Assembly: GCA_014871385.1 (NCBI GenBank)
Contig: CM026426.1
Coordinates: 78,659,566 to 78,723,565, forward strand
Reading direction: 5' to 3'
DNA from: Ceratodon purpureus
Taxonomy: Eukaryota; Streptophyta; Bryopsida; Pseudoditrichales; Ditrichaceae
Length of the DNA: 64,000 nt
The notes beneath the pieces are model-generated. The model was not told the DNA's origin. It searched no databases and worked only from the letters and a program-made list of their open reading frames with translations. The position numbers and the translations under genes are program-made. Shown here piece by piece: positions 14,886 through 60,633 of this stretch; within the stretch, counting starts at the first letter, position 1, and each line of letters starts with the position of its first letter.

Positions 14886-17800
14886 ATGCCAAGTAGCACA
14901 AGCTTGAAAAGGTCGCATAAGCACAGTGGGGGGCCTTTGTTCGATGACATTTTCACTCATTCTGAATCGCAAGAGCCGGGAAAGATGGGACGAGGGAGAG
15001 GGAGGCAGTGCATCGACTCGGATGACGGTGGTCGCAAGAAGAAGAGGGCCAAGCGAGACGCTTTGACACGAGGTAGGGAATCTCTTAATCTTGTGCTTGC
15101 GTTGTAGATCAAAGAAAACATAATGTATGTTTTGTTGTTTTGGGTTTGCAAAGATTGTAATGTTGAGGTTTATGTGAAATGGCCATGGCTCTGCATATAC
15201 CAATTGGGATTTGGCGCTGGCGCCACACGTATTTGTGCAGACAAAAAAGCTTGTGATCTGTCATTCTTTTGAGTGGATTTGGATTAGATGTGATAAAAAG
15301 CAAGGATTCTTACAAAAGTGAGTATTCAGAATGGCAATTACTTGTTGCGTGCGTTTTTATCAAAAAGGTCGTGGATGCTAATCATACTTGGACCTCTGCT
15401 CTAGATTACCGGTCTAAGTTTTATTCGAATTTGTATTATGGACCGGTCTTTTGTGTCTTGTGCTCGGGTCCATTGACTTTATCGCGTTGGATGTGAGGTC
15501 TGGTATGGTCTGGCTAATATTAAGAAGGAAGTGATGATTACAATTAGTTTGATACACTTAACTCTCCGTACTGAATCAATGAAAGATATGGTGTAGACTC
15601 CATAAGTTCTTTGTAGGTCGCATCATTGGTTGTCATTTCAAGTTAGCAACTTAGAGACTTATGATTTGATATCAGTAGTTTCATTACCACTGTCATCTGT
15701 TCTTTCGTTCGTGGCTCATCCTATGCAGCCTTTTTCTTCTCAGTGACCTTAACTTGTGTTTAAGGGCATTGGCGCCACCAGTTAAATGATTGAGTTACAT
15801 TGTAATGATTCCTCAATTCAGAATGCCTTCAGTGTAGATTTTATTAACCAATTTCATAGGAAGCCTAGGTACACCTAGAAAAGGTGTTTAGAGAAGATGC
15901 GGTTGCCGTGGTCATAATTTTGATTGCGAGGTTTATTTAAAACTTATCAGTGACTATTTTTGATTCAAAATGTTGACTCGTTTTGATTTCCAAATGTAAG
16001 CGCTTGTAGTTGGTGCAATTTTGGAGTTTAAGGTAAGTTAACCTTCTTTCCCAAGCTCAAGAGTCCCTAGATTGACTCAGTGTTTTGAGAAGAGTAGATG
16101 ATGCTGTGGTTGATAGATGTTCATAGTTTATTTGGAAGTCATTTGTGACAATATTCGATCTTGAATTTTGCACCTTTTGGCTTCTGAAGATGGTGCTAAT
16201 ACGAAACTACCCTAATTTTAATTGTATGGCGCTGACGCCACTTGTCTTGATTTCTATAATGGATGTCCTCTCGTTGTTTCTTTGCAATTTTACACATATC
16301 ATGAGCTGGTGATGGATTATACATCCCACCTCGCGCCGGCGCCAACACTTGAAGGTATACACTCCAGCTGGTGACTTTCTGGACTTTGATTAGAACGATG
16401 GATTATACACATCATTATCGATTCTATTTTTTACGACACTCCATGGCAAATGTGATGTCAAAGATGTTACTGATTATTTGGTTTGAAGCTAATGTTATAT
16501 TGGCTTCATGACTTATAGCGGCTCGCATTTTCAACCGATGTCGATTCGGATTAGAGTGAGATCAAACCATCCAATGATGACAACCCATTAGAGGAAGCCA
16601 TTGAGCGAGGTGTTGTTCCTAACTCCAATGTGAGCTCATTTGAACAATTTCAGGAGCAGCTCTTTGGCCACCTCAATATCAACAATCACTTGCAGCGACG
16701 AAAGCTAATGCTATTGTGTCTCAAAATCCTACTATGTAGACTGAGGCCAACATTGTGCGTTTGTCAAGCATACGAAGGCAATATCCAAACACTTTACGAT
16801 GGCTTCCATGTTGGAAACTATGGTACTAACTTTTGGGTGACGTGTTGTGGCAATCTTGGGGAGTTATCTTTGGAGGGATGCGATGATGCTGAAAATTGGT
16901 CATCTATTTCAACGGAGTTTGATGTTGAGCTTAGAAAGCTCTGTGAAAAGGATACTGAGAATAAAGAGTTATATGAGCATATGATTTGGCAATACGTCAA
17001 CGCTTGGGATGCCAACCACATGGCAATAGCATGGATGCGGTACATGCTATCAAGGTAAAATAATGGTGACAATATAAAAGATAAAAATGGTGACCCTATC
17101 AAGGTAAACTGCTTCATTCTGAATGATTGCGACGAAGACCGAGGGTGGATCTCGAATTTTATGCAAGATATGAATGAGTACAACTCTTTCCTTTCTTGCA
17201 TTGTATATTGGTTTTATATGTTGATATTGTTAAGTCTATTTCCTTTACATGGTTCGAATCGGATCACATCTTGTTAATTAAAATGCTAGCCTACGTTGTT
17301 CCTGCCGTTTATGTCATCTCAGTATTTTGACTAGGTCTTGTATATTTAGAAGCACATCAGTCCAGCGCTCGTTGAGTCCAAATATTCGTATAGCTGCTTA
17401 GTGCATTATATTGATATGGGCTTCTTAATTAACTCTAGTTCATTCTACTTGACTGAATCTAGAAATACATATTTCTCTCTATAATAACAGAAAGTCTTCT
17501 GAAATTTTTGTGGTATTAGGGTTTTAAAAGCTACTTGTATTCACAATCCAATATGCGGTGCCTCACCTCTCACAAGTTCTTCACGTTCGAAATACGACTG
17601 GATTAATAAATTGTGAAAACTTTGATAAACGGTACTAATGACAATCGACAAGCGCTTGAATGTCGCATTAAGCTAATTTTTGAATTGTTTGTCAATTACT
17701 TACTTTTATTCGGCGAGTTTCTATATTTGCAGTGGTTTAGCAAACATAGTAGTGAAGAAGGAGTTGGCCCATACCCTATTTAAAGTCATGCAAATTGCAA

Positions 17801-20362
17801 AACAAGACCCAAGCAAGTACATGGTTTGTTTTACCGAAAGCAAATTTATGCGGATCCACGACGTTTGCAAGGGGCGCTCCTACAACATGACTTGCAATGT
17901 CATTAGTGAAGTGTACCTCAAGGTATTGTGCATGATCACATAAACACTTTGTATAATAAATAGATGGTAGTCTTCACTTCTTGACTTTACATGAACATTT
18001 TGAACTAATTGTGTCAATTGACATAGCGTGAGATCAGCATGGCTAAACGTGAGGCTGTCCAAAGGTCAAAAGATGAAAAGAGGGTCCTCTATGCTTTGGC
18101 CATTGAGGAGGCATAACAGTTGGGAGCCGTGAAGATATGGAAAGAGAAAATCAACTATATGAAGAAAATCTTCCGATTGTGCAATCCGAAGTATCATCCT
18201 CACTTAGCAAATGAACTTGACATGCACACGCGTTTGTCTGAAGAGAACTTCTAGAAGAGCCTCATGACTATTGAAAATCTTGGTATACTAGTTGGAGTGC
18301 GCGGAATCGACATCCATAGAGTTCTGAAGTTGTGGAATACAAGTAGCGTCGAGAAGTCAAAGTATAGATTTCATGACGGAGATTTCACTCCGGCGTCTTA
18401 CCAAAAATAGCAGAAGTACAGAGCTCTGTGGCAACAAGTACATTATTATATTATTTCACCCCAAATCTAAGGCAACTGATATACATGGAATGGCTAGGCC
18501 ATCTAAATAGATAAGGTTGTCAAAGATTCAGGATGCATATGAGAAATTAAATTACATGTATTCCCTTAATTGTGAACACTTCGGCAATTAATTTCTGATG
18601 CTCGTAGTGAATTCTTTGTGCCTTGCAGATGATTCAAGGGCCTCGGATATATTCAATAATATAGTAGGCAAGTCGAAGTTGAAGAAGGGAATAGGTTTTT
18701 TGAAGAATCCTGATGGTCGTGACTTGCTAGAGGGGTATTTTGACAACATCATGATTCACGGGTTTGACAATTTCTTTACGAGATTTTCATACTAGATGGG
18801 GGCCCCTTACGACATAAGAGATTGGACGGAGCAGCTCACATATGATTTGAGAGAGAAAGTTGTGCGCAGATGCGTAATGAGATATGTACGATGGCTCTCT
18901 GAGAAAGGGGAAGTATAGGAGGAGTCTGGAAATTTAGAAGTCTTCCCCATTTTCGTGGACTGGCTTCAACAAACTGAGGACGACGCTTTCCTTCAAGATC
19001 ACATAGATAGGTTTGACCCTCCATACCTAAAGGGACAAGGATGGTATATCAAAAATATACCGGGGGAAACTCAATTCATAGACTTTGCTAACTAGAATCT
19101 CCATGTACAAGCCATAGGCGAATACTAACGCGTCAGAGATGCGACCCTTGCTCAGAAGGCTGTTGTACTCCAAAAGACAATGGCAAACCTCATGACCAGA
19201 GAGTCTGATCCAAATGGCGTTGCAAACATGGTAGAGCAAATCTCTCCCATTCCTTTGTCTACCCTCACTATAATGCAGATATTATAATGTGTGCAAATTA
19301 ATGGTAAGAAGCTATGACAACATAAGAGGGTGGCTAGTTGAAATTGTGTCAACTTGATCATCTATGGCACTCCAGACAACAACATCGTCTCTGACTTAAG
19401 ATAGGGAGGGGTGGAGGGGTTGGTATCCAGTTGGAAGATGGTGAAGAAGTCAACATCCGCGGCAATTTTTCATATTGCGAATGCTCTCTTGTCAAACTAC
19501 GGATTTCTCCTGCTATTTGTCTTGGCTGAAGAGCAGCCTGATCTATTGGCCTGCCCAAAGGCTGTGGAATGGGATTGTACGAGGAATTTTTACCTTGTCA
19601 ATTATAGGCCTTTCCATCACACTTGGTTAAAATGTTTGTGCATTGCATTAGTGCCTTACGTATTTAATTTGTGAATTAATTAGCCGCTAATGGTTTGATT
19701 TGATCGTGGTCTTTCAGACACAAATGTTTAAGGCAAAGTTCTTAAGACGCAAATCTACGAGTTAGTCGTATTTTTTTTCAACAAAATAGGAAGCAAGGTC
19801 ATGAATTGGCATTCTGAACAATCGAATGTTCTAGAGAACGTTGGTACAATCGCAAATCTACTAAGGTGTGAAGAGAGTATGTCATATGGAGGGTCAAAGA
19901 AGAAGTCCCTAGCGTTTATGAAATTCATGATCAAAATTTGTATTGGAAAGATAAGAGATGTTCTAGACTTGACTACAGATGTAGGTACGTCATGATTATC
20001 TCACCTGAATCATAATAAATGATGAAGCTTGGGTCGATTGAGGCAAGCGGCCAATCTGAGCATAAATGTCAGATGTTTCCTTGGAAATTGTCTATGATTC
20101 TAATCTACACTCTATGCGATGCAGGATCCTCTGTCCAAGCCTGCAAACTCAATGGACAAAATATCCTAGTGTTAGAGAGGACAAAGTAGTATTTCAAACT
20201 CACATCAAAGATGACGCTGTGGTGCCAAAAGTGGATATTGCACATGAAGACAACCGGTTTTTGAGCCTCCAAGAACACCTGGATCTGCTTCAGAATCCTA
20301 ATTCGCAAGCCAGAGCTGCTGCTAGTGGAAAGCCCTACGCCAACCCATTACCTAGGACGTGA
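14886..20362 (+). pseudogene. ParB-like plus DNA-methyltransferase-like gene of element A
   Basis: A multi-exon gene read through in-frame stops. First exon about 14886-15071 opens with ATG and carries a nuclear-signal-like GGRKKKRAKR, ending at a GTAGGG donor. The next coding block (~16530-17175) shows a ParB-like core, NAWDANHMAIAWMRYM, then VNCFILNDCDEDRGW. Further exons are 17733-17922, ~18027-18450 and ~18629-19670. The last holds the segment NLIIYGTPDN where motif IV would lie, then LLSNYGFLLLFVLAEEQ. An exon near 19776-19983 ends in VLDLTTDVG, matching methyltransferase motif I, and splices to GSSVQACKLNGQNILVLE (from ~20128), followed after one frameshift by DKVVFQ. The motif order (IV before I) is that of beta-class bacterial N4/N6 methyltransferases, which are often fused to ParB domains. 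There are about 12 stops, mostly TAG. Family inference is by motif. Confidence 0.6.
15212..16344. repeat. Family-A palindromes inside introns of the ParB-methyltransferase gene
   Basis: Sites are TGGCGCTGGCGCCA at 15212-15225, a half-type TGGCGCCACCA at 15770-15780, TGGCGCTGACGCCA at 16227-16240, and CGCGCCGGCGCCA at 16332-16344. All lie between the first exon (ending ~15071) and the ParB-encoding exon (from ~16530). They are the same family as the sites at 9339 and 10877. No copy was noticed in the other elements. Confidence 0.65.
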
Positions 20363-21854
20363 TCCATGTGCGTAATTCTAGATCTATAAACAATGCCCCC
20401 GTACATGCTGGATAGGGGCCTTCTCATGTCGAAGATAATTGAATGTTTCGAGAACTTGTGATTCTAATGACTTACAATATTATAGATGTGAGGGAATTCT
20501 ACTACTAGTTTCCTTGCATACTTGTTTCCTTGCACTTTACTCCACCCACCATGTTCTCTTACAGTTCACTACACCTACCATAGAGGTTTGCTTGTTGACT
20601 CTCTGAACTCAAGAACATCCCTACTCTACCATGTTGCCATCGCTCAATACATATGCTCAAACCTTGCTTATTTCATTCAGGACTTGCGAGACTTTGGCAC
20701 TATCCAAGGATCCAAATTCATGTTCCCAAATACGCGATATCGATAGGTCAGACCTTTCCAATGGTGTGACTAGTAACGGACTCATGTCGGCCGCACTGTC
20801 AAGGCCACTTAGTTCTAAAGCGAAGTCAAATGACTTGTTGGACTTTGAATGGCATAGGCAGCCATAGTTTGCAATTTTATCAGGAGCACAGACGTCAAAA
20901 AATTGCAAGTTAAGGATGACACGACTACATTTGAAAAAAATGCTATCAATAGCGAGCATTACGCTCAAAGATTCAACTAGATGCCATGAATGATCCAATC
21001 AATACAAACATACAATTGAGCCATCATGCACAAGCTTGGCAAAAAACTATTTCAATCATGAAGAAGATGGTCAGTGGGAGCGTAAGTCATACCAGCACAT
21101 CCTTGATTGAACTCTGCTTCAACACCTCTCCACTGTCCAGCACCTTTATGACATTGAGTGCAAGGCCACCTCCTCGATGCCTTGCTTTGCCTGCACCGAG
21201 TGGCTTCCATCGAAGACTAGTAAGGAGAGTAATACGCTCTGATGAGGGAAGTCCTCAAAGTACAATGGAAATGAACTAAGGTAAAAGTATTGGATTGTTT
21301 ATTTATATTAGCGCCTTCATTCCTTCATGTATTGTACCGCTGTTCTTTGCGCGGAAAACCTGACTTGCCTCTTTATTTTGCATGGGAGCGGCGGAAGCGC
21401 CATTTTCAAATGCATGTTTTATTTCAGTTAAGATTGGTGTCAATACTCAATAATGAGGCAGGTAGCCAGTCTGGCTGCTGTTAGTCACTCTGAAATTATT
21501 GCAACAAGTATTGCATCAAAAATGGAATATAATATCAGATCATGACCTCGGAGTTGTTCATTTCTTGTTTAATTTGAATATGTCACATATGTTGAGCCCA
21601 TTAATAATGCGCACAGTCGAGGTTCATAGTAGCAATCGTCATACTGTCCTTCTTCATTTTTTGCTGCAGATCAGTGTTTCGTTGGGCTAGCATCCTTTGA
21701 TCTAGTTCTGTGTTGAACTCTTAGTTGCAACTTTGTCTCCTTAGTGTCACTAAAATGGTTTTTTGCTTGGTTCTAAGGACTTGATTGGTCTCAAATTTGT
21801 GATATTTCTTGTGCTTTCCAAATGCTAAAGACGTCTAGTTCTTGTGTATTCCTA
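20363..21854. other. No confident gene; 3' flank of the element A methyltransferase gene
   Basis: Short frames occur (for example 20986-21279, plus strand), which could include a last exon of the upstream gene, but no motif supports that. Nothing else is recognised before the second MITE copy. Confidence 0.4.
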
Positions 21855-22571
21855 GGAGGAGAGCACAATAAAGTGAACCACAAAGTGCAACAAGTGATCT
21901 CTAGGAAGTGAATATGAAGTGTGCTAGTTTTTAAAGCTCAAATCTGATTTTGAGCACTTAGGTGTAGTTTTTGAGCTTTTGGTATCTTACACACATCTAC
22001 ATAAGAAAAACATCTTCAATTGAAACTTAATTTGACCACTAGTTCTAAAGAATGAAAATGAACTTATTCAAAATCTTAATTTCTTCATTTGGTGCTCTCT
22101 ATTGTCTTTAGAGGATGTTTTTTTCAATTTAAAAATTAATGTTTGGTGAAAAAGAACTCACAAAAAGTACCGCTGAAGTGACCCTCTTCAAAAATATCCT
22201 TGCGGTACTTTTGGAACCCTAAACCAATTAATATGTATGTGAATTGACTATTTTAAAATACCTTTTATACATACAGAGGGCACCACTTCATCAAAAGTGA
22301 TTTTTTGATAGTTTTTGATTCTTTTCTAGCCACTTTTTCAAATGAAGGCATTTACTTTGCTTGAATTTAAAGCTTTCATACAATAACTTTAAAGTGTCTA
22401 ATTTGCATGAAACTTTTCCAAGTTGTAGAAAGACAAGTTGAGAATATACACTAGCAAGAAAAATGGACTTCAATAACATCTTTTCATCACTTTTGTGCAT
22501 TTTTTGCAAAAGGGCTGAAACTAACAAATAGCTAAGCACTTTTTTGGTCCACTTTCTTGTGCTTCTCCCCC
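21855..22571 (-). mobile_element. MITE-like element, copy 2 (~717 bp), inverted relative to copy 1
   Basis: The left end reads GGAGGAGAGCACAATAAAGT and the right end, inverted, GGGGGGAGAAGCACAAGAAA. CTA flanks both sides (21852-21854 and 22572-22574), a likely 3-bp target duplication. Internal sequence matches copy 1 in reverse orientation, for example the block around GGTGTAGTTTTTGAGC against GCTCAAAAACTACACC. The differing target duplications argue for two separate insertions rather than long terminal repeats of one element. Confidence 0.75.
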
Positions 22572-23920
22572 CTACTCAATGATGATTCTAGTTCCCACCA
22601 CCAAGAAGCCGAGAAGTAGATGCCTTGTTTGTTGGTAAAGCGTTGCAATGGACGGAGCTTGGTGGTGTAGCACAAATCCAATCAGACCACTGTGACAGTG
22701 GCAACTCGGACTTTGAAACTAATGCACACTCGATTTTTGCTTAGTCCGTCACAATTGTCCAGTGGTTTCAAGCTCTTTCCATAGGTCGATTATTCATCTG
22801 CTCTTGCTAATTTTTCCACATTCGAATTCATGTTCCGAGTATTACTTTCCATGGTCATCAATCATTGACGAGATCAATGTCGAGTCTTTTTTTTATCATT
22901 CCAATTTTATTCTTATCAAGGGTGCATGTGTTGGTCCTATTCAGGACCGTGTTAGACTTTTATCGCGCCACAGGCTGGACACTTTTCTTCTAAGGCAAGT
23001 TCTAAGAAAAGGTCGTATGTGAGCTGAGAGCGGAGAGCAGAGACCGGAATCAAAGAGCGGAAAATGGGAATTTTCAGGGGTAGTCTAGGGTGATTGACCA
23101 TCTAACACCATGGAATCAACGGTCATTTTTTTAAACATGTAGGTGAAGATATCATCCTAAATATAGGTATTATTGGGATATTTAAATTACTAAAGTGTCT
23201 CACGTGTGCAGATATCCTCCCCTTCTTGTACAGAATTTAGGGCTGACGTCATCTTGTCATCATGGTAAATTGATTCTATGCACATCTGCTCTGAAATTAG
23301 AATATTATAGTTTTGCAATAGTCTAGTAACAATGTGAGACCAAACAAGAAAAACAAATAAAGTTGTACACGTCCATTAATCGATAAATAAAACTTGTACA
23401 TAATCTAGAGCCCACAATTGGAGCACAATAAAGACAAAGCAATTCTCTCATATCAAGCTACACCAAAGCTAAGCCAAGCAGATTCTAGAAGATCCTTGAA
23501 TAGGAGTTAGCTTGATGAAGGGCGGCTTCCAAGTGTACTTGCAAAATTTGGTGACCAGTCGAAAAAACGCCACGCCCGATTTATAGTTCCAGATTGTGGT
23601 GGAGTCCTTGGAGTACACTTTTTTCTCATTCAAAACCTAACAATATCCTTCCACCTTGGTCTCAATCTCCAAAATGCATTCGATGAACCGCATGTCCTCA
23701 AAAAAGCTCTTCATCTCCACCTCCGTCTCTAGCCGGGCCATCTCCACCAACTACATAACTAAAACTGTAAGAGAAGGAGAAGAGAGAGGAGTGAGCAAGA
23801 GGAGATAGAAGAGAGGAGAGAAGAGAGAAGAGGAGAGAAGGGGAGGGATAGGAGTGTGAGGAGAGGGGAAGAAGGGATGCCTTTATAAAGGGTACCCCTC
23901 TCGCCCAAGGTTAAAGAAGA
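22572..23920. other. No recognisable gene
   Basis: Short ORFs only, with no motifs. From about 23770 the plus strand becomes purine-rich (GAGAGGAGA-type runs), marking the start of a low-complexity zone. Confidence 0.45.
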
Positions 23921-27367: not shown

Positions 27368-27392
27368 ACACCATATTCGTTATTTTGGGAGA
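27368..27392 (+). repeat. Left terminal inverted repeat of element B copy 1
   Basis: Starts ACACCATATTCGTTATTTTG and continues GGAGA. It is inverted relative to 44321-44345 and directly matches 59648-59672. Confidence 0.8.
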
Positions 27393-29833: not shown

Positions 29834-29857
29834 CTGGAGAGGAAATACCGATGACAA

Positions 29858-34700: not shown

Positions 34701-34794
34701 GGAACAGGCTTGAAGAAATGTTGTAACGCCTCAAGTACCCAGGTTTTCTCCTCACTGCAAGGAGCAAACGTTCAACATTAGTCAAATTCGAAGC

Positions 34795-35270
34795 CATTTA
34801 GCTTGATCTGAGCTAAATGGTGGTTCATTTAAGAAATATGAAACTAGACGTCCCAGCAATTTAGCTCAACTCGAGCTAAACTGCTATGGGATCCTGGTGG
34901 GTGATGTGCAGTTTAGCTCGAGTCAAGCTAAATTGCAGAGCTCGCAACAGGAGCCCCTAGCAGTTTAGCTTGAGTCGAGCTAAACTTTGGAGGCGTCCTG
35001 AAGGAAACACTTACAGTTTAGCTCGACTCGAGCTATACTGTAGGTGACACTCCCAGGGATGTGTGGAGAGTCGCAGCTACAGTTTAGGTCGAGTCGAGCT
35101 AAACTGCAGAGCTCCTAGACGAGCTCCAGAAGTTTAGCTCGAGTCGACCTAAACTGTAGGGTGGTATAACTGAATTTGGCCAAAGTTTATGAAAAGAAAT
35201 TGATATTTTTCTTCTGTTTTTGTACAATTATTCATATGAACGCTGCATTTAACTCGACTCGAGCTTAAAT
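34795..35270. repeat. Array of eight family-B palindromes in the 5' intron of the ParB-methyltransferase gene
   Basis: Sites begin at about 34795, 34857, 34908, 34961, 35013, 35080, 35131 and 35246. The consensus core is TTTAGCTCGAGTCGAGCTAA, often extended by CAG and CTG. The six central sites are spaced 51-67 bp apart. Sequence between the sites is not conserved, so the palindrome itself is the conserved unit. The whole array lies in the intron between 35319 and 34755. Confidence 0.85.
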
Positions 35271-35388
35271 ATTGTCGTTGTGTACAGAGACGTATATAAA
35301 GTGGCATTCGGTTTTATACCTCTCGACCATTTCCCGATGAAATTTCTGTGGATCCGTGTTTGTAAAGGTTGTCGAGCGTGTTCTACCT

Positions 35389-36650: not shown

Positions 36651-39540
36651 TCATGTGACCACGGGGTCCTAAGCCCGTCTCCGCGGGTTGAGTGTTTCAA
36701 TTTTAAATTAAAATGCTTGGAATTTGAACTACGGGAATTGTTGGTCTTTAGAGTAGTCAAAAAAAAATTATGTGTATCTAGAGCTATGAATTAAAATTCT
36801 ATTCCAAATAATTTCCACGCAATTTTAAAGATTTTGAAATAACACACAATTTTAAACTTCGAATTAGGAAAATTATTAACATAATTTAAAAAATGAAAAT
36901 GTTTATTTCTATTGTAGAGAAACAAGTAAAAAATATATTGTATGCCTCGTATGATTGGCATGTAATTTAACTTAATTTTAATCAATTCAATAACGTACTC
37001 AAGGTCCAATATTCGTACAAATTTATTACTTTCTTATAAGAAAGTAGATTATTTGGTTCATTCATATAATTACAATAAAAAAAGTTATAATTCATGGATT
37101 CAATAGAAACGTCTTAAATCGATGATCATCATTATTGTAGTATTAATATATGATACTAAGTAAGCCTCTAGACACTTGACAGTGCAAGCATACAATCTCA
37201 TTATTCAATTCTAAAATCCAATCTTGTTATTTTACCCAAATAAATAACATATGGTTCATTTGGCATGTGAAATATCTTAACCTTAAGCAATTCAATCAAT
37301 CTTGTACCCCAACTATTATTCATGTATTAATGAAAGGTTTAAGAAAATTATTCAAATTGAGGTCTAGTTAATTTATATATTTGAAATACTTAATCTTAAT
37401 TGAATATGGGAGCTCTACAAAATTTTATTTACATAATATTCCTTTCAAATATATGAAGATAAAATTTGTTTGAAGACGAATTTACTTTGACTACACAAGA
37501 TTAGAGTTTAAATAAAAATTTGAAATTATATGACTATAACATCAAATATGAATACACTATTAGCAATAAAACTATGGCATCAAATATGAATATACTATTA
37601 GCAATGAAATTGAATTTACTATATTCTAATTGGAATCATATTTACGTAAACGTTATCATTATATTCTTAAAGTACATGTTAGTATTATTATTTTTCTATA
37701 ATATAAAATTATATTATAGTAAACTAAGTTACTAATATATTTATTTACAATTATATATTCAAATAATAATAGTACGAGAACAATAAAGTACATTAAAGTA
37801 TTTACAAATTTTAAAAGAATATTTAAGTATATTCAAGTACATATACAAAGTACATGATTTAGAATTAATACTATTAAATTAAATAATTCTTCCATTTGAT
37901 GCTTTCATATTTGTATATTTTGTATTCAGATATTTCCATAATATAGTATAAATTTAGAAATGGAGAGGCTAGAAAATAATAAAAACATTTAAAAACATAC
38001 TTCTCTATTTGATTTATAGAAGTTCAAAAGTCAAGAACTAATGTAAATTTATAAATTTATATGAATCCAAATATTTTCTTATATGCTAACTACTGCAAAC
38101 ATATAAATACTTTAAATACTGAAAACAAAAATAAAACTACACCATTTGAAATTAATTAATACGAAGTCTTGAAAACAATACAAACATTTGATATCGTACT
38201 TCCGGAACTTAGATTTGTAGAAGTTCAAAAGTCTTAAAACTAATGTAAATTCATAAATTTATATCATTCCAAATATCTTCTCATATTTAAAAAATACAGA
38301 CAAAATGCAGACCAAAAAAAACACAAACAAACTGCAGACAAAAACAAATACAATCAAAATGCAATACCAACTTTACATAAAGCATGATTTGAAGTATTGA
38401 AAAAAACTTCCAATACTTTTCACTAGAATAAACAAAAAAAGAGTTCCCTATCCTGACTAGTTTTCATCAGAACTCACATTGGGTTGGCAACCACGCACCC
38501 TATTCACACTAGAGATTGAAGGACATGGTTCTACAATCCCATGTAAGTTATTGGATCCATCATGGTGAATTCTACTTAAGGTAAGAAAGAGCCAGTTTAC
38601 CAAACCATGTGGGATTAACAATGTAGAGACTGAATTGCACTATCTATCTTTAAAGTAACTTACTAAAAAAAGTGATTTTCACTTTCTCACTAACCGAATT
38701 TGGTTAAAACAAATTTAAAGAAAAAAAAAAAAGTGACAACAATAGAGTTGCAATTCTTATGAATATCAATATTGCAATTCAAAGATTCTGATATAACTAA
38801 AATTATTATTCCATAATGAAAACTAAATTTTAAAATTGCAGTATCTAAATACATGTATATACATGACAATTTTCTTAATTTTCATAATTATTTTCTTGGA
38901 TCAAAATTATTTTTCCGCACGTATCTACCTAGTCCACTTCCAAGAGGATGTCAAACACATAGAATAAAATAATATAAGGTAAAACAAGTGCCCAAAAAAT
39001 GTAAACAACGAATTTAAAAAACCGATTCATAATAGATATTACTTATCATAGCAAAATCTCACCGATTTCAAAACTTCAAGGGGTATTTGTCTTTGTATTT
39101 AATGTGCATCACATTGTGAGATTAGATATGTCTATATAAACATATAAATATTCTAAAAAGAAAAATAATAAATAAACCTACACCATTCATGGCGAAATGA
39201 ACACACTATGAAATACATAAAGAACTAAATAAACATATGTCATGAATATATATACATGATAATTATATCTAACTAAATATTTACATGAAGCTTTATTTGT
39301 AGATTTAAAAATATATCTACCTAGGTATATCAAGAACTATTCATTATCTCACATGTAATGATTTAAATTCCCACATTATATTTAATAATGAATTTGAGCA
39401 AAAATACATGCACTAGTACATTGAGATATGAACGATTGCAACAATGTGCATCTCTACATGAACCTTAATCCTGAAATTCAAATAGGTTCAAACAAGTTTC
39501 GAATTAATTTTATTCCCTGTACGATATATTTAATGTTCCT
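36651..39540. other. AT-rich centre of element B, no gene
   Basis: About 2.9 kb of strongly AT-rich DNA with only short chance ORFs. It separates the leftward ParB-methyltransferase gene from the rightward DUF7869 gene and so should hold their divergent promoters. A near-duplicate segment (GAAGTTCAAAAGTC with neighbouring TGTAAATT and ATAAATTTATA) occurs near 38030 and 38220. Confidence 0.5.
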
Positions 39541-39633
39541 AAAAAACCCTAAACCCTACACCCTAAACCCTAAAACCTGGACCTAAGACCCTAAACCCTT
39601 AACCATGAACCCTAAACCATGTTCCCTGGTAGA
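39541..39633 (+). repeat. Degenerate plant telomere-type (CCCTAAA)n tract
   Basis: Roughly ten imperfect repeats of CCCTAAA, with variants such as CCCTACA and CCTAAGA. It lies about 0.6 kb upstream of the first coding exon of the DUF7869 gene. It could be an interstitial telomere repeat or a cluster of telo-box promoter motifs. Confidence 0.8.
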
Positions 39634-40225
39634 AGAGGATAAGTTCGGGGCTAAAAGTCAACCTTCTGTCTGGCGCTATGACGTATCCAACCCTTCCCAT
39701 TTGATACAATTAATGCACCAAATATTTTGCATCTGCATGTAGGTAAAGGGCTGAGGAGTAGGGAAAGTTGTATTTCCCGCTCTCGCTCACACCACAAAAT
39801 GTGGAGGGACGAATGGTCCGGAATTATTCCCGCCTATTTTCAAAACTGAAGCGGCATGAAAACGGTCACACGTAAGAGAATGACCTCTGGAATCGTCCCC
39901 GCTCGAAGTCTTTTCTCTACTCACTTGCTTCTCTCGTGTGTAGGAGCTCGCAGCGCTCTCTTGGAGGTCGTTGTTTTCTGGGCAGAAGCTATATTGCGCC
40001 GTCTCTCTTGTACATCTTCTCTTCAGTTTGCTTTGAACATCAACACGTATAATTGATTCTGGGTTGTTCTATGTTTGCGATTGTTGCAATTCTCGGTGTA
40101 TCAAGAGTGTCTTTCTTAGCAACTTGGAAACATCATATTGAAGATGGTGTCTGCGTACTCTGAATCTGAGAGTCTGAATTCCAAACGTGTTCTCTGCTAT
40201 GAACGCGCCGCGTTTTGCGGGGTGT

Positions 40226-40435
40226 AGTTTAGCTCGAGTCGAGCTAAACTGTCTGCCCTTTGGACAGCGCAGTTTAGTTCGACTCAAGCTAAACTGTCTG
40301 TCAAAAGCCCAGACATAGCTTAGCTCAAGTCGAGCTAAATTGAACTGGTAAAAGCCCAGGCACAGTTTAGGTCGACTGGAGCTAAACTGAATTGCCCATA
40401 GGGTAGAGCAGTTTAGCTCGACTCGAGCTAAACTG
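40226..40435. repeat. Array of five family-B palindromes in the first intron of the DUF7869 gene
   Basis: Sites begin at about 40226, 40271, 40317, 40363 and 40410, spaced 45-47 bp. The best copies read AGTTTAGCTCGAGTCGAGCT followed by AAACT. An equivalent array of five lies at the same position in copy 2 (63563-63782). Confidence 0.88.
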
Positions 40436-40945
40436 TGCGTGGGCCTTGGTTTCTGACTAGTAGATGAAATTTCTTGTAGGACTATAATATGTTCTCATAG
40501 GTTTGTAATTGTTGCATTCCAGGTACAATAAATTATTCCTCAGATGACGAGGTACCGGTTGAAGCTTCCTTTAACCCAGAGCTTCTAGATTTTGTTTTTG
40601 TCCCTTCAAGATTATGGCAAAACAAGACTATTACAATTTACAATGACGACAATATCCCATTAGCAGAGAATTTAATCCAGAATCCTAGGTCGAGCTTGGT
40701 ATTTGACTCGGTTGGTCCCCTTGGTGATTCCGTTGTCCTTGTCCAAGTATTACGATCGTTAGTCGAAGAAGAGTCAGAGGATGATTGGAGGTACTCCTTC
40801 AAAACATGGTCAATCAGCCACGTCTATCTGGATGGAGTTAGTCTGCAGCACCATAGTGAACGTGATGTTTATAACCGTTGGGCTGCGGAGCGTAACCGAT
40901 CCTTGGGTGATCGTGTACGATCGTATGATAACTCCTCTAGAAATA

Positions 40946-40957
40946 CCCCCCCCCCCC
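40946..40957 (+). repeat. Homopolymeric C run at a reading-frame switch
   Basis: Twelve C residues here; copy 2 has six at the same place. The frame before the run ends shortly after it, and the coding frame after it (PSINSVAANTCC...) is offset by one base in both copies. Confidence 0.7.
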
Positions 40958-43353
40958 ACCTATATCACGTAACACTGAGGTCCTGATGACACAGCCGTCA
41001 ATTAACTCTGTAGCGGCAAACACGTGTTGCGCTCAGCTGTGCGTCCAACACTATCCCAGAGATAAAATCTCTACTCTTCGGTCGCGTATGTACGACAAGA
41101 CCAGCGAGCAATTCCAAAACCATATAAAACTCAACGTCCATAGGCAGATTCACAAGAATTCAGTGGAGAGGAGTGTGGTGACTTTGGAGGGCATTGATGT
41201 TTGCCCCTTCGCGTAGATGAAGATCATGGGAGTGAGCTCCTGTACATTTTATCGAAATGCTAAGTATGCTGCTCCTAGTTTTGAAGCTCAATTCCACAGC
41301 AACACTAGTCACGTAAGCCTAGAAATCACACAGTTGTAGCAACTGCCATCATAGAGGCCATCCTTGACAAGCATGCCGACCACATGCCCCACAAGAGTCG
41401 TGTTCTGCCTTCAGGGGAGACAGTTGTAGCTAAAGTTCTGCCTTCCAGTTTCAAATGGAAGGAAAAGATTGCGATCCTCGATGAGCATTTAACGGACTGT
41501 GGATTGCCTTCTATGTCCGCTTCTAACTTGAGCAAGATCAGGAGGCTTAGCTATCCAGAATATTACGCCAAACGGGCAGGAGACAACTTCGCTCGTTGCT
41601 CAAAATGTGATGAGTTCTAGTCCCTGAAGAAGTTGACCTCCACAGGCTCTCAGGCGTCTCTGTTATGGTCTAGGAAAATGAGGCTGCACAATGACTCTGC
41701 AATGGCGCACAGGGACTTGTATTACCTATATATTCAGGTCGAAGGCTACTCCTCATGAAGTTCTTACAATTATGCATGACAAGATGGACCACTCGAAGAC
41801 AGCGTCGCCGGCCTTATCCCCCAAGGTCAAACACTTAGACGGTCTCATGAAGCTTCTTCACGCTATCACGGGAATGCTTGCTCATGGGCATGTGAATCAG
41901 CGTTACGCCCATTATGGTCTTGACATTTACTCACATGATGCTAATTACACGGTTGGATCGTTTGCAAAGCTCCTTCGCGATCTGAATCCAAATTCATAGA
42001 ACTCTTTCAAGAAAATCCTTCACACCCATTGTATGCCGCGCTTTTGCATGGTTCGGAGATGTGTTTGGATCCTCTTGGCCCTCCTCGTGAGGTTCCTGTT
42101 GCTGCTAAACCCTTGCCTCCCATTCTTAACGTCCAAATCGATAACGCTGTCAGTGAAAACAAGAATAGATTTGTATTTTCATTCTGGTCCCTATTAGTCG
42201 CGAAGCGGGTGTTTCGCGAAGTGTACGTGAATTTCATGCTGGTCGGCCATACTCATGACGATATTGATGCCCTTTTCGGGCGATGGAGCATGGCTTTGCG
42301 GAGGGAGGACTTCCCCACAGTACCTCTTCTCATGAAGTCCTTCATGAAAAATGAAGTTGCATCAAGAATTTTGCATCTCTTTCAGGAGGTCTCAGATTTC
42401 AGGAAATTCATTGGGGAGTGGATGCTTGATAGGAACGACATGTTAATGGGTCACACTAAAGCTCATCAGTTCAAGTTCTATGTCGATTCTTCAAGTTGCC
42501 CGATCATGAAATATAAAATTTTCTGTCACGACGACGACTAGCTGCCAAAAGGAGATGGATGTGGCATTAAGTTGTGGAAGGAGGATTCAGAAGTCCGATC
42601 TTTATGGCCGCGTGGTGTCCGCAGTGCCGTGGCGCCTTGCGAGATGCGGCACCTTCCTGATGTGATTAAGGGGTTGTCAAGTTTTGTAGATCATTGAGAG
42701 AGGCTATCTTTCGATTCAATCGAGTCTAGAAGAATCTATGAGCCCCTCTCATACTACTGGAACGATGTTAAAGAGGCTCTTGCCATCCCTTTTGATGGAG
42801 TCCCCACCTTGCAGTATGGATTTTGGTCGTCCACTCGGCTCGCTCACTCCGTTGAAGACGAGTTTCAGGGGGATGGAACTTTGCGCGAGGAGTTCGCAGA
42901 GTATGATCACTTTGTTGGTCACAAACGGGATTGCCCAGGACCGTCATTCGTGTGGCGCGATACCTTTTTGCAGGGTGTTTCTTAGCATTACAACCCTGCG
43001 ATGAAGACGTTCGTCCTTTGTGCCTTGCGAGAGCCTTGACTGACATTAATTTGAATCTTGACGCGCCGAACACAATCTAAGTAGAGTTTAACCGTCTAAT
43101 TTCCCGAGAGGAAGATGTTTTGAAATTCTATACCCGCTGGGATGTGGATGGGAGACTTCGTTGGGCAGCAGAGAAGGATGTACTTGAGTCGTGGCAGAGT
43201 GTTGATGCAGTCCTAATAGCTTGGAAATCAAAAGTTTAAAAAAATGTGAACAAGCGGTGGCGCGGCCAGGATCCAACGCTGAAGATTCCACTCAAACAAC
43301 TGGACATTATAAAGGCCTCCTTGGAGAGATTTGTTTCTCCGGATTTTGGATAG

Positions 43354-44320
43354 ACATGTTGCTTTGAAGTTGGTAGTCTTGAAGTTTTGAATTTACGCAT
43401 ATCAGTTATATTTGTTCGGAGACGATTGTACTTAATATCGTTCATCCATTCATTCAACATTATGTTCACTAGACTAAAGGCAGATGTTTAGCTCGAGGCG
43501 ACCTAAACGACATTTAGCGTAGAAGTTGATAGTATTGATGTTTTGAATTCTAGCAGATTACATATATTTTGTTGGGGGGAATTCTACTTAAATCCTTATG
43601 TCTATTGCTTATATACCATCTATACCAGATTATAAACAGCAGTTTAGGTCGAGGCAACCTAAACTATATTTGGCGTTGAAGTTTGTACTTTATGAGTTTT
43701 GATTTCTAACAGGTCGCTTATAGTTGTTCGGAGAGATATTTACTTAGTTTCATTTGTCCGTTGATTCTATATCATATATAGTAGCATATAGAAGCCGTTT
43801 AGGTCGAAGCGACCTAAACGACATCTAGCGTTGAAGTTCCTAGTTTCTATTTGTGAATTAGAGTCGATATCATACATTTGTTCGCATGGATGGGACTATA
43901 TCTAAGTCCGTATGTTCATTGATTTCATATCATATGTACAAGACTGTAGGCAACTATGTTGGTCAAGGCAACTTAAAATTTTGTACATGACTAAAAGGGC
44001 CCATCATGGATTCAACATTTAAGGAGTGTCGACCTAAATTGTATTTTAACACATATATATAATATAAGTTTGCCCAAGTTATCCGTTGGTTTCATTTCCC
44101 GTTATTTAAGCATGATGTTCATTTAGGTTGGTTCGACGTACCTTGTATATTCTCATATATTATTTAGTAAATTATCCGGTTCTTTCATTTCCCGGTATTA
44201 ATGTATGATCATCTCCCAATTTAATGAAAAATCCTTATTAACTTTTTCTTGCCAAGTATGAGACCCTTGTGCTCATTTTAGCTCGACCATAGCTAATGCA
44301 TTATTTTAAGAGATGATAAA
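43354..44320. repeat. ~155 bp tandem units with palindromes at the right end of element B
   Basis: Palindromes of the type TTTAGGTCGAGGCGACCTAA lie at about 43485, 43641 and 43796, with a decayed one near 43955, spaced about 155 bp. Sequence between them is also similar (for example GAAGTT...TTTGAATTCTAGCAG). Degenerate sites follow near 44015, 44119 and 44278. The same layout recurs inverted in copy 2. Confidence 0.75.
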
Positions 44321-44345
44321 TTTCCCAAAATAACGAATATGGTGT
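44321..44345 (-). repeat. Right terminal inverted repeat of element B copy 1
   Basis: Ends in CAAAATAACGAATATGGTGT, the inverse of 27368-27387. Just inside, 44302-44330 forms an imperfect hairpin with arms ATTTTAAGAGAT and the ATTTCCCAAAAT region. Confidence 0.8.
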
Positions 44346-44479
44346 TGTGTACACTGGATCTTTTTTCGTTTTATTCATGAAAACGTTCATGATTAAATCC
44401 AAAGTATTGTACTGCGCTTCCTAAGGTTCATCTATGAGACAAAACTCACGCTAAGATAAAGTGATAGCTGGCCCAGGAA

Positions 44480-47400
44480 AAAGAGCTGATTGCCGAGGTC
44501 CGTCCAAACTGCGTCTTGACTTCAAAGATTTAGAAGACTTCCATCGTCTTTGGTTATCAGTCACAGCGTTAGACGGGGACACAGCAACGGACCCATCAAC
44601 ACCCTGCTATGACCCACCTATCTTTTGGGCTACCCTCCTTCCTTTTTGCGCCACCGTCTTCTTTCTCCTCTGACCTACTTTAAGCTCCTCTAGAAGTGTT
44701 TCATCAGGTTCTGGTACCTTCTCTAGAATGATGTTAAGGGCACCGCATCGTTTCTTCAAATCTTCTTCCTCAGCGGGGCATAATTCCTTGCACAGTCAAT
44801 GTATTACTTGCACTCCTTGAGATGGGACGACTGAAATGTGTTCTTCTAGTGCTCAGAGAAAATGAAGGACTCGTGCCCGAGCTCAATCTTAGTATCCATC
44901 CAAGACGGGTCCTGGAGGATTGCCTTCGTTGGTTTTAACTCCCTCTTGTAGAACCTACAAAATATACATTGTTGGATTAAATTTCCAATTTACACCAAGA
45001 CAAGGATAAAGAGGATGCTAAATGGACCAATGTCTTGATGCTTACCGATAGATAAATTTGTTGACAATGAGGTGGCCACGATTAACTTGGTCCCAAGTGT
45101 CGTTTGGATGGAATGGATTTTTCCCTGAGAAGACGACTGGGTAAGTCTTTTGCCATACCTTCGTCTTCTAGTAGTCTAGGTACTCAATCCAGCACTTTGC
45201 TCCTTTGCTCGAGTTGAGAATCGGCACGTCGTTGAGATAGTCGGGAATTTTCTCCCCAATTGCATCCCCTAGCAACGTTAAAAAAAGCATGCCTTGTGCA
45301 GCCAAGTGTGAATTTGAGTCTCATTGCATCACACCCTCGAAAAATTGTTTGGTGCCCGCGTAGCTTCAGAGCCATTCCAAATCTTCAGCCAACGCACTTT
45401 GTAGATTCTCTTCACGTTAGTGGATGCTATAAGCTGCAATTTGTCAAGCTCCATCTTGCATTTTTGATTAGGACAATTGTTGTAATGATGCAAAATTTGA
45501 AAAATAAACGCAAAAAATTAATAAAAGACATAAGAATTGAAGTCAAATCAAAGGAAATAATGTCGATTGGGGCTTTGCCCCATTGCAACTACATCACAAG
45601 CTTGAAGGCTTTGGAAGAGGTGAGTGACCACAATACTTGTGAGCTCCTCAACAGCTGCAATAACAAATGATTACCAGGAAATCCACAAATGATCACGTTA
45701 AGAAAACTGGGTGAATCCAATTTTGAGGTACCAAACTACAATGCATATCACATGATAAGTCCCTTGGTACCGATAGACAAATCATGGCAAATTTAACAAT
45801 TAGTACGACGAGACTCATCATATGATATGCAATGTAGTTGGTAGCTCAAAATTGAATTCACATAGTTGGCTTAACGTGATCATTTGTGGATTTCCTCGTC
45901 ACCATTTGAAATCAAATCATGTACAAATTGACAAATCGTGGACCGCCTCTCCGGCACACAAACCCCATTTGCATGCCTCTAAGGCCCCTTACGGGCCTTA
46001 GAGGGGGTTCTTGGCACCGAGAACCCCTTCGGGGCCTTAAGGCCGCGGTCCTTGAGCGCGCCCTTAGGGCCCGTAAGGGGCGTAATTTTTGTTTAAAATT
46101 GGCCCTTTTGAGCCCTAAAGGCGCGCTCATAGATTGCACGAGGGGCCGCATCTAGTTATTTTTGAACTGTTTTTTAGTTAAAAAGAGTTGAATCCTCTTT
46201 AATAATGTTTATAAATCTTACCTCCTCAATAAATTCCTTTCCACTCTTGGGATTTGCAATAGCCTGGAGCATGCTCAAGAGCATATTCAGTACATCTTTG
46301 TTCTTTAGAATGGCCGAGATTATTAGTACACATAGTCACGCACCGATCAGCTTATTCATTGGTATGGTCTACTTGTATACGTTGCAGGCGTCTCGTCGTG
46401 CCGCGGCAATTTCCTTCTGAAACATGTTCCTTCATTAGAGTTGTTTCACACAAGAAAAGTATTCATATTTGTATTAAATCAGCAAAAAAAGCTTTGAATG
46501 ACTTACCTAGAAGAGGTTGTTGACCATCGTCTCAGCACTCAGTGGATAACAAGTTGAGGCCGTCTTTTTCAACTCAGCGTGGTATTCCTCCTTATTGAAT
46601 AGATGCTCGAAGTATGTCACTAGAAGTTGCCCATACTTATTCACCATTTTGATCTGGTGCAAGGCGTTTGTCTTTACATGCGCCTCCTTGTTTGATTTGA
46701 CAGAGTACACGATTTTAGATGTCTTAAACTTGATCCAAATGTAAAAGAAATTGAATCATGAGACTGCTAATAGATGTGAAACAACATCTTGCCGAATGGG
46801 TCATGGTTCTTGCTTGTTAATTGAATGCATGGCTCCAAGTATCAATCCATATCGATTCTCAACAATGTCGAGGACCAAGCAATCCAGCATACCGCTTTGG
46901 CGGTACCACTCTAGGTTGTCCGGATAGGCTTCGTCAATGCAGCGCTTCCACGCCGTGCAGCGGTGATTGCCGTCGTAAACAAAAAACATTTTTTCCCCTA
47001 AGTTTCTTTAGATTAGGATCGAGCTCTAACTCCAACTCAAAATCTTTGTTTATCTGATTCCATGCTTCATTCTAGCCATCTCGGATATCTTCAGTCACTA
47101 TCTGCTTCTTTCCTTTTGGATTGGTTAGGGCCATGTAGAACAGGGCTGACCCTACTCTGTACCCGGACCAATACTCGCCCATCAAATGTAGAACCTCAAA
47201 CTCCAACACATGCCAAACTTCCGACATACTTACCATGCGGCCAAACTTCTCTTTTGTTTGCTTCGGATACTGGTTGGCTGCAACAAAGCTGTTATTCTCG
47301 AATTCTTTGATCATCTGAGCCTCAATCTCCAATGTAGTCACGCCATTGTTATCCTCAAAGGGTTCGTTGGCGGTTCCTCTCCCTTCTTAAGCCGCGGCCT

Positions 47401-47716
47401 CTTCTCCTTAGGTAGCGTTGTATCTCCAGTCTCTTCATCTTCGTCCTCCTTGAACTCTAAGGGATCCTTCTCTTGCTCCTCCACCTTGATAGGGGTCTCA
47501 GCAAGTGGCGGCGTCGCACTCTTTTGCAAAGGAGTACTCTTGATTGTCTTTGCTCCCGTCAATGTCAAATGCATCAGCCATACCCGTCTCTAGGTTGACC
47601 ACGCCCTCCTCGTCCTCTTGCACGGACTGCTCCGTCGCTTGTCCCTCCATGCTCTCGGCCTGCCCCTCCCGTTCCTCCGTATCCAACACAGCTTCTTCTT
47701 GCGCCGATGAGTTCAA
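44480..47716 (-). pseudogene. Element C ParB-like 5' half, split from its methyltransferase half by element B
   Basis: Read from 47716 leftward: an acidic N-terminus; a basic patch (KEKRPRLKKGEE); a frame change near 47380; TTLEIEAQMIKEFENNSF; a TAG near 47072; then the ParB-like core MFFVYDGNHRCTAWKRCIDE followed by LDCLVLDIVENRYGLILG. Later exons are 46710-46507, ~46420-46220 (MLLSMLQAIANPKSGKEFIEE), ~45300-45060 (IPDYLNDVPILNSSKGAKCW, YPVVFSGKNPFHPNDTW) and ~44955-44480, ending in a basic linker (RRKKTVAQKGRRVAQK). Exon order parallels the element A and B genes. The expected next part, methyltransferase motifs, is missing here but present at 27.3-26.1 kb on the same strand. Confidence 0.62.
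45979..46080. repeat. Family-C palindromes, intronic cluster
   Basis: Consecutive inverted repeats: CTAAGGCCCC/TTACGGGCCTTAG at 45979-46001; GGGTTCTTGGCACCGAGAAC with flanking G and C at 46004-46027; GGGGCCTTAAGGCC at about 46031-46044; and CCTTAGGGCCCGTAAGG near 46062. The second shares its core with the cluster at 24.0-24.13 kb. The location is an intron of the split ParB-like gene. ORFs covering this block on both strands are artefacts. Confidence 0.65.
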
Positions 47717-47853
47717 TGAACCACAGCCCCATTAGTCACTCTAAGTAGAACCCCAGCCAAAACCCTAAGTACTAATCGCAAAATAGAACACTACGCTGAT
47801 GCCTTAAAACCTAATCTCTGCCCTTTATTCACAAATTATAATCTTACTTCCCC

Positions 47854-48060
47854 TTAAAACACAGGCGGCGCCCCAATTCTAACCCTCTTTCCCTTCTTGG
47901 GCTTATCCGGACGACCTTCTCTAGACTGCCTTTTCTTACCCCTCATCTCAGTTTCTGACGACCTCTCATCTCCGGAGGCCTTCTTCCTACCCTTCTTCTC
48001 ATTGCGAGGTGCTTCTCATGCCCGGACGACCTGTCCTCTCCATGTACCTTCTTCGTTGTA
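47854..48060 (-). CDS. Possible basic N-terminal exon of the element C gene
   Basis: A minus-strand frame rich in Lys and Arg (EKKGRKKASGDERSS, KPKKGKRVRIGAPPVF) lies just upstream of the ParB-like half and ends at TAA 47856-47854. It resembles the basic first exon of the element A gene in composition and position, but no clean ATG or donor fixes it. Confidence 0.25.
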
Positions 48061-60620: not shown

Positions 60621-60633
60621 GAAAGCTACATGT

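Follow-up and report, generated by a model that had tools for sequence, protein, structure and literature searches.

Decayed copies of two putative transposon accessory gene families in an interval of the Ceratodon purpureus genome

The interval described here, part of a window of 64,000 nucleotides (the whole stretch of Ceratodon purpureus DNA that was analyzed), appears to contain decayed members of two moss gene families that each occur in multiple copies. For both, the most likely mechanism would be that of accessory proteins of transposons; we give this joint reading a probability of about 0.5. Family 1 comprises genes A and C and the moss protein P0017, family 2 comprises gene B, and decay has affected each of the three copies that the window contains (Table 1). 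An earlier note on this DNA had proposed one family of ParB-like/methyltransferase-like genes, each member on a different transposon of its own. The six peptides that it quoted are all present where it placed them, and tblastn with P0017 and P0001 identifies A and B as real multi-exon genes. Instead of one family across three transposons, however, the sequences point to two, and a carrier was found for B only.

Table 1. Features of the window (strand "." denotes features without orientation)
Feature	Position	Strand	Basis
First MITE-like repeat flanking A (~750 bp), inverted relative to second	11095..11848	.	own inverted ends
Gene A, decayed multi-exon relative of P0017	16549..20177	+	tblastn with P0017
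A ParB-like core WDANHMAIAW	17005..17034	+	P0017 equivalent WDGNHRALAW
A putative motif IV VNLIIYGTPDN	19348..19380	+	tblastn alignment; P0017 826-836 VDLILCDTPDN
A putative motif I VLDLTTDVG	19960..19986	+	P0017 equivalent VLDLTGGIG
Second MITE-like repeat flanking A, opposite orientation	21841..22572	.	own inverted ends
Gene C, methyltransferase half beyond the B insertion, three frames	26650..27366	-	collinear with P0017
C putative motif I INFTAGTG	26713-26736	-	peptide located; P0017 alignment
C motif V-like DAALVIVYTNEN	27119-27154	-	P0017 alignment
C putative motif IV VYLIVAQVPDNCLVP	27249-27293	-	P0017 alignment
Element B, ~17-kb transposon inserted in gene C	27366..44347	.	perfect 25-bp terminal inverted repeats
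Left terminal inverted repeat of element B	27366..27390	+	0 mismatches
Gene B, decayed copy	29056..34756	-	tblastn with P0001, 57-87% identity per block
FCP1/NIF-type HAD phosphatase domain of B	29056..29836	-	Pfam PF03031
B motif-I-like stretch GDAMFQLYVGSKP, methyltransferase identity unproven	31783..31821	-	peptide located in window
B DGQHR/ParB-like core INAQHSIAASK	33599..33631	-	P0001 equivalent IINGQHSVAASK
DUF7869 domain of element B, two frames	41832..42532	+	PF25273 E 2e-35; other piece 4.5e-4, below cutoff
Right terminal inverted repeat of element B	44323..44347	-	0 mismatches
Gene C, ParB-like half (outer limits approximate)	44348..47731	-	hhalign to P0017 E 4.3e-6; tblastn E 0.003
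C core YDGNHRCTAW	46948..46977	-	peptide located in window
Second copy of the DUF7869 side of element B, running past the window end	59646..64000	-	85.5% over 4380 nt

Genes A and C and the methyltransferase domain of family 1

P0017 is a C. purpureus protein of 1084 residues with a predicted C-terminal beta-class DNA methyltransferase domain. Sequence and profile comparisons show the homology of this domain to methyltransferases: P0017 matches the PHROG DNA methyltransferases (E 6.2e-6) and, by tblastn, phage methyltransferases (E 2e-4), hhalign comparison of the family with viral methyltransferase profiles gives E 1.7e-7 and 9.3e-7, and a motif HMM scores 33.2 bits, a value reached by 0 of 1000 shuffles. 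The BLASTP alignment spans motifs IV, X, I, and II. The match to Pfam N6_N4_Mtase (PF01555; E 4.1e-5) lies below the Pfam cutoff (24.1 bits; cutoff 26.7). Motif IV precedes motif I (residues 999–1009) in P0017, and likewise in A and C. In the predicted architecture, a ParB/Srx-like core (DGNHR, then an FxxxN-like motif) is followed by an extended middle region, a linker rich in Lys and Ser, and, at the C-terminus, a beta-class domain of N6/N4 type; the position of the core (DANHM in A) upstream of the methyltransferase is as in 19 viral ParB-methyltransferase ORFs, 18 of them distinct. The form (D/N/S)PP(Y/F/W) of motif IV is replaced by CDTPDN in P0017, YGTPDN in A, and AQVPDN in C. Methylation activity of the family is doubtful because all three sequences have PDN at the end of motif IV and lack the usual aromatic residue, and this form suggests weak or no catalysis. 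Searches of viral contigs with P0017, with the B alignment, and with a WDGNHR DNA pattern led nowhere. The best PDB sequence match, a phage portal protein (E 0.0084), was taken as chance.

Gene A is collinear with P0017 residues 12–1024, except for about 599–807, in six tblastn blocks (16549–17187, 17725–17922, 18027–18440, 18634–19191, 19294–19992, and 20124–20177) of 39–61% identity (best E 2e-72). A hand-joined chain gives 51.5% identity over 705 aligned residues, and a database search with A gave 47% identity over 64% of the query. The blocks contain 16 in-frame stops, some of which may be intronic, and the A core is without the G and R of the P0017 core (DANHM vs DGNHR).

Gene C had been described as one gene; both of its motifs are present, but they lie 20 kb apart with element B between them, so a contiguous 20-kb gene was rejected. 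When the flanks of element B are joined, ORF pieces on both sides fall in one frame. The ParB-like half carries stops and a frameshift. The methyltransferase half, joined by hand from three frames, has a Smith–Waterman score of 69 against P0017, with 0 of 2000 shuffles as high, a shuffle test that ignores the choice of frames. Its similarity to viral methyltransferases alone is weak (E 0.0058–0.068), and 1 of 1000 shuffles scores as high when P0017 is left out of the HMM. A homologue search with C gave no match among the 7999 candidates listed. By these alignments to P0017, A and C are members of one family, as judged from sequence, and the beta-class domain with motif IV before motif I that was claimed for all three genes is retained for these two.

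A search for the ends of a C element turned up nothing beyond short inverted matches (21 and 23 nt). For A, the earlier note had proposed a MULE; a single 11.5-kb element that carries the gene between long terminal inverted repeats was considered as well. Gene A is indeed enclosed by inverted arms that are 81% identical, but each arm has inverted ends of its own and short direct repeats at those ends: CAT or CATG is readable on both sides of the first (the exact end being uncertain by about 1 base in G/C runs), and CTA on both sides of the second, provided that one C is assigned to the flank. The sequences outside the pair show no match to each other, and neither the minus strand of 8.5–14.8 kb nor two ORFs there gave a Pfam match to a transposase. 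We therefore dropped the MULE assignment and regard the single long element as improbable; the arms look like two independent MITE-like insertions.

These observations also bear on whether family 1 belongs to transposons at all. It could instead be a normal moss gene family with dispersed members, or the remnant of a transfer from phage or bacteria, that bears a methyltransferase domain. A region full of transposons would explain its location, no transposase or element end linked to A or C was found, the repeats around A look like independent MITEs, and the P0017 cluster has only 8 members. Against this stands the presence, within about 31 kb, of two decayed and diverged copies broken by stops or by an insertion, a state in which transposable-element genes are often seen. 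On balance a host gene or transfer relic seems a lesser but substantial possibility, and we favor the transposon accessory-protein reading.

Gene B and its DUF7869 transposon

The perfect terminal inverted repeats, and the interruption of gene C between them, show by sequence that element B is a TIR DNA transposon in nested insertion. It contains the DUF7869 gene on the plus strand and the B gene on the minus strand, so the assignment of B to a DUF7869 element stands, and it is the only carrier demonstrated among the three genes. No convincing target-site duplication was found at 27366/44347. The second copy in the window (DUF7869 E 2.7e-43) ends at the same repeat with 1 mismatch (59646–59670), its other end lying beyond the window.

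Gene B is a decayed relative of moss proteins of 1291–1587 residues. Six tblastn blocks (34756–33314, 33147–31753, 31385–30375, 30212–29982, 29836–29531, and 29532–29056) cover residues 4–1584 of the 1587 of P0001 and contain 17 in-frame stops, some possibly intronic. In C. purpureus, the relatives comprise 169 sequences grouped in 16 protein clusters, 139 of them in a single cluster, and their records are named for U, V, and autosomes.

The best conserved part of B is the phosphatase region (81% identity to P0001 vs 61–72% elsewhere), and profile matches show a predicted FCP1/CTD-type phosphatase domain. PF03031 matches P0001 with E 4.4e-12, and three of the four proteins scanned (P0001, P0002, and P0013; 43–46 bits) exceed its cutoff of 21.8, with P0004 (20 bits) and the window fragment (18.7 bits, E 0.0015) below it. 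The NCBIfam dullard-like match (3.2e-5) is far below its cutoff. The phosphatase motif, usually DxD, reads DLNG.

The methyltransferase part claimed for B fared less well, and B as a proven methyltransferase was rejected: its motif-I-like stretch is in register with some methyltransferase profiles only, at E 0.011–0.4, short of significance, and shuffle tests failed, since the P0001 700–1000 region alone is equaled by 87–121 of 1000 shuffles with the motif-I HMM. That HMM finds nothing in any of the full-length B proteins searched with it (P0001, P0013, and P0016), and tblastn of P0001 against phage gave no match.

The view of the earlier note, that A, B, and C descend from one ParB-methyltransferase ancestor, with B having diverged and gained the phosphatase, draws on residues of about 898–944 in B, which are in register with motifs X–I in four of five region-limited comparisons (three viral sets and P0017) and as the second-best match to viral fusions and to P0017, as well as on a DGQHR-like core at a similar relative position. 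However, the stretch is out of register against the viral methyltransferase set and against the methyltransferase half of C, its E values and HMM results are those given above, and the similarity between A and B falls short of significance. Common descent is thus doubtful, and we keep B in a family of its own.

The ParB-like cores

The ParB likeness of the genes holds at the level of motifs: the cores read DGNHR in P0017 and C, DANHM in A, and NGQHS in the B relatives (GQHS in 15 of 16), each with a downstream FxxxN-like motif read by eye. The B core matches a viral DGQHR profile by hhalign with E 7e-5 to 2.4e-4 over 16–17 columns (a score equaled by none of 200 column shuffles), the viral set having been gathered with a pattern that contains the DGQHR motif itself. 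For A and C, the ParB comparison is not significant: cut regions give E 0.003–0.028 over 8–56 columns and whole P0017 gives 0.12, a joint profile gives 0.012, a value that 3 of 200 column shuffles equal or beat (one of them a tie at the printed precision), and the HMM score is reached by 38 of 2000 sequence shuffles for A and 136 of 2000 for C. No match to A or C was obtained with classical viral ParB profiles, and membership of these genes in the classical (AGHGR) ParB group was rejected; the viral fusion profile matches P0017 in the methyltransferase part alone. A phage tblastn with the ParB region returned only 4 records, with E 4 or more. Homology to ParB would thus rest on short motifs.

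The cores could be chance DGxH motifs, with a methyltransferase (family 1) or a phosphatase (family 2) beside unrelated moss-specific domains, as would fit the near-chance scores of A and C and the lack of any ParB family listed by Pfam, NCBIfam, or PHROGs. Yet three cores are each followed by a strand-like stretch and the FxxxN-like motif (by eye), they lie upstream of a methyltransferase or methyltransferase-like part as in viral fusions, and no column shuffle equals the B core. We consider coincidence rather unlikely and treat the cores as ParB-like.

Known systems and possible roles

Among known systems, the phage and bacterial ParB-N6/N4 methyltransferase fusions, of which Bce_0392 is described as a ParB-methylase with nicking activity (PMC5512222), resemble family 1 in the upstream ParB-like core, the beta-class domain, and motif IV before motif I. 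Unlike these, the moss gene has introns, 1084 residues, an extended middle region, DGNHR in place of AGHGR at the core, a motif IV ending in PDN, and no significant ParB profile match. DGQHR, DndB, and GmrS domains (PMC4619093, PMC10853773) share with family 1 and B a DG-Q/N-H core and a downstream FxxxN-like motif, but no counterpart of the QR pair that PMC4619093 names was identified in the moss sequences; in contrast, B is without the core Arg (GQHS), and the partner is a phosphatase or methyltransferase rather than Dnd or HNH. DIRS retroposons are described as carrying an inactive N6-adenine methylase (PMC3537659), likewise an adenine-methylase-type domain borne by a mobile element and probably inactive, although DIRS is a tyrosine-recombinase retroelement and here B lies in a TIR element and a carrier of A and C was not found. 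The cytosine DNMTs of retrotransposons in Symbiodinium and Klebsormidium (PMC5890265) offer a transposon-carried DNA methyltransferase, one case being in the wider plant line, but are unrelated C5 enzymes. DNA transposons with TET/JBP or SET genes (PMC12730594) likewise have a chromatin- or DNA-modification accessory gene adjoining the transposase, with other enzymes and in other hosts.

In the preferred accessory-protein reading, the ParB-like domain of family 1 would bind nucleotide and DNA and the methyltransferase domain SAM and target DNA, such that the protein may mark or read adenine or cytosine methylation on element DNA; either activity could promote the element's replication or transposition or let it escape silencing. 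The family 2 phosphatase may target a transcription or chromatin factor of the host, and the DUF7869 TIR transposon with its family 2 gene jumped into gene C. The nested insertion and the domain order are shown by sequence; what we infer is the fold of the ParB-like domain, its binding of nucleotide, the DNA targets, a part in anti-silencing, and the transposon-borne nature of family 1. A bolder proposal, which we consider unlikely, is that moss DNA transposons adopted phage-type ParB-methyltransferase fusions for self-marking and anti-silencing and spread them on sex chromosomes, and that the DUF7869 lineage added a captured CTD-type phosphatase directed against host transcription, a defense/counter-defense system new to plants.

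Few eukaryotic lineages are known to have mobile elements with DNA-modifying enzymes, which give clues to how elements fight silencing. A plant family joining a phage-type methyltransferase to a ParB-like motif would provide a testable case of transposon accessory functions, and its phosphatase-bearing relative or look-alike in a DNA transposon, maybe in more than 100 copies, a second. Both cases bear on how phage-type domains enter plant mobile DNA and, if motif IV is truly dead, on why transposons, DIRS elements among them, retain methylases that are inactive.

Homologues and decay of the three genes

The earlier note had described three transposon-borne genes, A, B and C, each joining a ParB-like core to a DNA methyltransferase-like (MTase-like) part, and its six peptides were all found at the positions given for them. 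Two of these genes, A and B, are placed firmly by homologue search: the gene B construct matched 16 protein clusters (58–70% identity, 1291–1587 aa), 16 of 16 being Ceratodon purpureus by name, and the gene A construct had one match, the C. purpureus protein P0017 (1084 aa; 47% identity, with 64% of the query covered). The gene C construct gave no homologue among the candidates listed. By these matches the window is moss-like. In tblastn, P0017 maps to gene A as collinear blocks, and residues 4–1584 of the 1587 of P0001, a gene B relative, map to gene B. The window copies of A, B and C are decayed, with 16 in-frame stops in six blocks of gene A, 17 (10 TAG, 4 TGA and 3 TAA) in six blocks of gene B, some of them perhaps intronic, and stops and one frameshift in gene C. 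The gene B stop spectrum (TAG, 10/17) might be compatible with C-to-T decay.

Methyltransferase and ParB-like core of family 1

Sequence comparisons identify the C-terminus of P0017 as a predicted DNA methyltransferase. Residues 977–1031 match PF01555 (E 4.1e-5; 24.1 bits, under the cutoff of 26.7), and PHROG DNA methyltransferases are matched at E down to 6.2e-6. With E values up to 10 allowed, tblastn matches 127 phage records, the strongest at E 2e-4, and the best 20 of the 127 all carry methyltransferase annotation; BLASTP pairs ILCDLPYN with ILCDTPDN of P0017 and VLDNCMGSGTT with its VLDLTGGIGSS. Comparison by hhalign gives E 1.7e-7 against 92 viral MTases and, in the MTase part only, 9.3e-7 against 18 viral ParB-MTase fusions. 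A motif X-I-II HMM built without P0017 scores this protein at 33.2 bits, which 0 of 1000 shuffles reach.

The MTase domain claimed for A and C, which make up family 1, is borne out through P0017. Aligned over 705 residues, the hand-joined chain of gene A shares 51.5% identity with P0017. The ParB-like half of gene C matches P0017 with hhalign E 4.3e-6 and tblastn E 0.003, and its MTase half, pieced together from three frames, is collinear with P0017 (blastp 6e-5; Smith-Waterman 69, 0/2000 shuffles, the choice of frames lying outside the shuffle model). For this half, hhalign gives 6.3e-4 against the MTase region of P0017, 0.0096 and 0.057 (two pieces) against the whole protein, and weak matches (E 0.0058–0.068) to viral MTases alone; the motif HMM gives 7.3 bits with P0017 included (0/1000 shuffles as high) and 5.1 bits without it (1/1000). 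Motif IV reads CDTPDN in P0017, YGTPDN in A and AQVPDN in C. Because PDN is common to all three and the aromatic of (D/N/S)PP(Y/F/W) is missing from each, methylation activity of family 1 is doubtful.

Profile support for the ParB-like cores is confined to gene B. Its IINGQHSVAASK core is matched over 16–17 columns (E 7e-5 to 2.4e-4) by a profile built from 74 viral DGQHR proteins, but the pattern used to fetch these proteins already contained that motif. Of 200 column shuffles 0 are as good, and the HMM score of the core is equalled or exceeded by 9 of 2000 shuffled sequences. For A and C, the match of the DGNHR core to DGQHR profiles is not significant: E is 0.003–0.028 for cut regions, 0.12 for whole P0017 and 0.012 for a joint profile (equalled or bettered by 3/200 column shuffles, one of them a tie at the printed precision), and sequence shuffles reach HMM scores that do not span the core in 38/2000 (A) and 136/2000 (C) cases. 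Two features count for ParB identity, namely the position of the A/C core upstream of the MTase, an order shared by 19 viral ORFs, and an FxxxN-like motif, read by eye, downstream of the core. The available text of PMC4619093 gives the pentapeptide, an FxxxN motif and a QR pair as DGQHR hallmarks and assigns the related domain DUF262 to the ParB-like superfamily; the QR pair was not assigned here.

Gene B and its phosphatase

The proposal of an MTase in gene B was reduced to a suspicion. Its motif-I-like stretch lies in register with MTase motifs in four of five region-limited comparisons, and as second-best match against viral fusions and P0017, but its register is lost in the comparisons with the viral MTase set and with the gene C MTase half. 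Since the in-register alignments have E 0.011–0.4, the registers conflict, the MTase motif HMM finds no match in P0001, P0013 or P0016 (all gene B relatives), and 87–121 of 1000 shuffles of P0001 700–1000 score at least as high as the real stretch, a gene B MTase can only be suspected.

Residues 1353–1546 of the full-length relative P0001 match an FCP1/NIF phosphatase (E 4.4e-12), a Pfam label found on 10 of the 16 gene B clusters. This is the best conserved region between the window and P0001 (81%; other regions 61–72%). The nucleophile motif at 1356–1362, LDLNGIL, is without the usual second Asp; LDLNG is present in 8 of 16 relatives, and a plant phosphatase subfamily has DLNG. The clusters hold 169 member sequences, 139 in one, counts that database duplicates may inflate; the records are named after the U and V chromosomes and autosomes.

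Carriers and proposed function

Features of the window
Feature	Position	Strand	Remark
CACTA-type tnp2 transposase	956–2419	−	Transposase_21, E 1.2e-65
Inverted arm 1	11095–11848		CAT or CATG repeats
Gene A	16549–20177	+	family 1
Inverted arm 2	21841–22572		CTA repeats
Element B	27366–44347		DUF7869 element copy
Its terminal inverted repeats (25 bp)	27366–27390, 44323–44347		perfect match
Gene B	29056–34756	−	family 2
Degenerate element B terminal repeat	31466–31490		4 mismatches; internal, in probable gene B intron
Stretches like TTTAGCTCGACTCGAGCTAAA-type repeats	~33.1–33.3 kb		presumed gene B intron
Palindromic TTTAGCTCGACTCGAGCTAAA-type repeats	34854–35157, 40226–40435, 63562–63751		around element B's genes
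Second DUF7869 element copy	59646–64000		opposite orientation to element B
Open frame in second copy	60634–62376		580 aa, kept

Element B carries gene B and a DUF7869 gene (E 2e-35), divergently oriented, and as a nested insertion stands between the two halves of gene C. Its joined flanks have same-frame open stretches on both sides, interrupted by stops, the frame of gene C motif IV differing from theirs; no clear target-site duplication was seen for the element. The DUF7869 side of the element recurs at 85.5% identity across 4380 nt; this second copy terminates in the same 25-bp repeat at 59646, with one mismatch, and its other side lies beyond the window.

The placement of gene A in a MULE was not supported. 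The two arms flanking it look like two MITE-like insertions more than like terminal repeats of one element enclosing A: each has its own ~35-bp inverted ends and readable short direct repeats (1-base ambiguity, G/C runs). A Pfam scan of the minus strand at 8.5–14.8 kb gave no transposase; ORFs near 12–13 kb may resemble MULE-like moss proteins.

Among the matches listed in a literature search, no title or abstract describes the family, and the name DUF7869 had no occurrence in the literature searched. Precedents in the available text of the sources are a ParB-methylase with nicking activity, Bce_0392 (PMC5512222), DIRS elements with an inactive adenine methylase (PMC3537659), retrotransposons bearing DNMT (PMC5890265), and DNA transposons carrying TET/JBP and SET genes (PMC12730594). 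Our best inference is that families 1 and 2 would be accessory proteins of transposons, in which the ParB-like core would bind DNA or nucleotide, the MTase domain would bind SAM or DNA, perhaps without catalysis, and the gene B phosphatase may target host factors.
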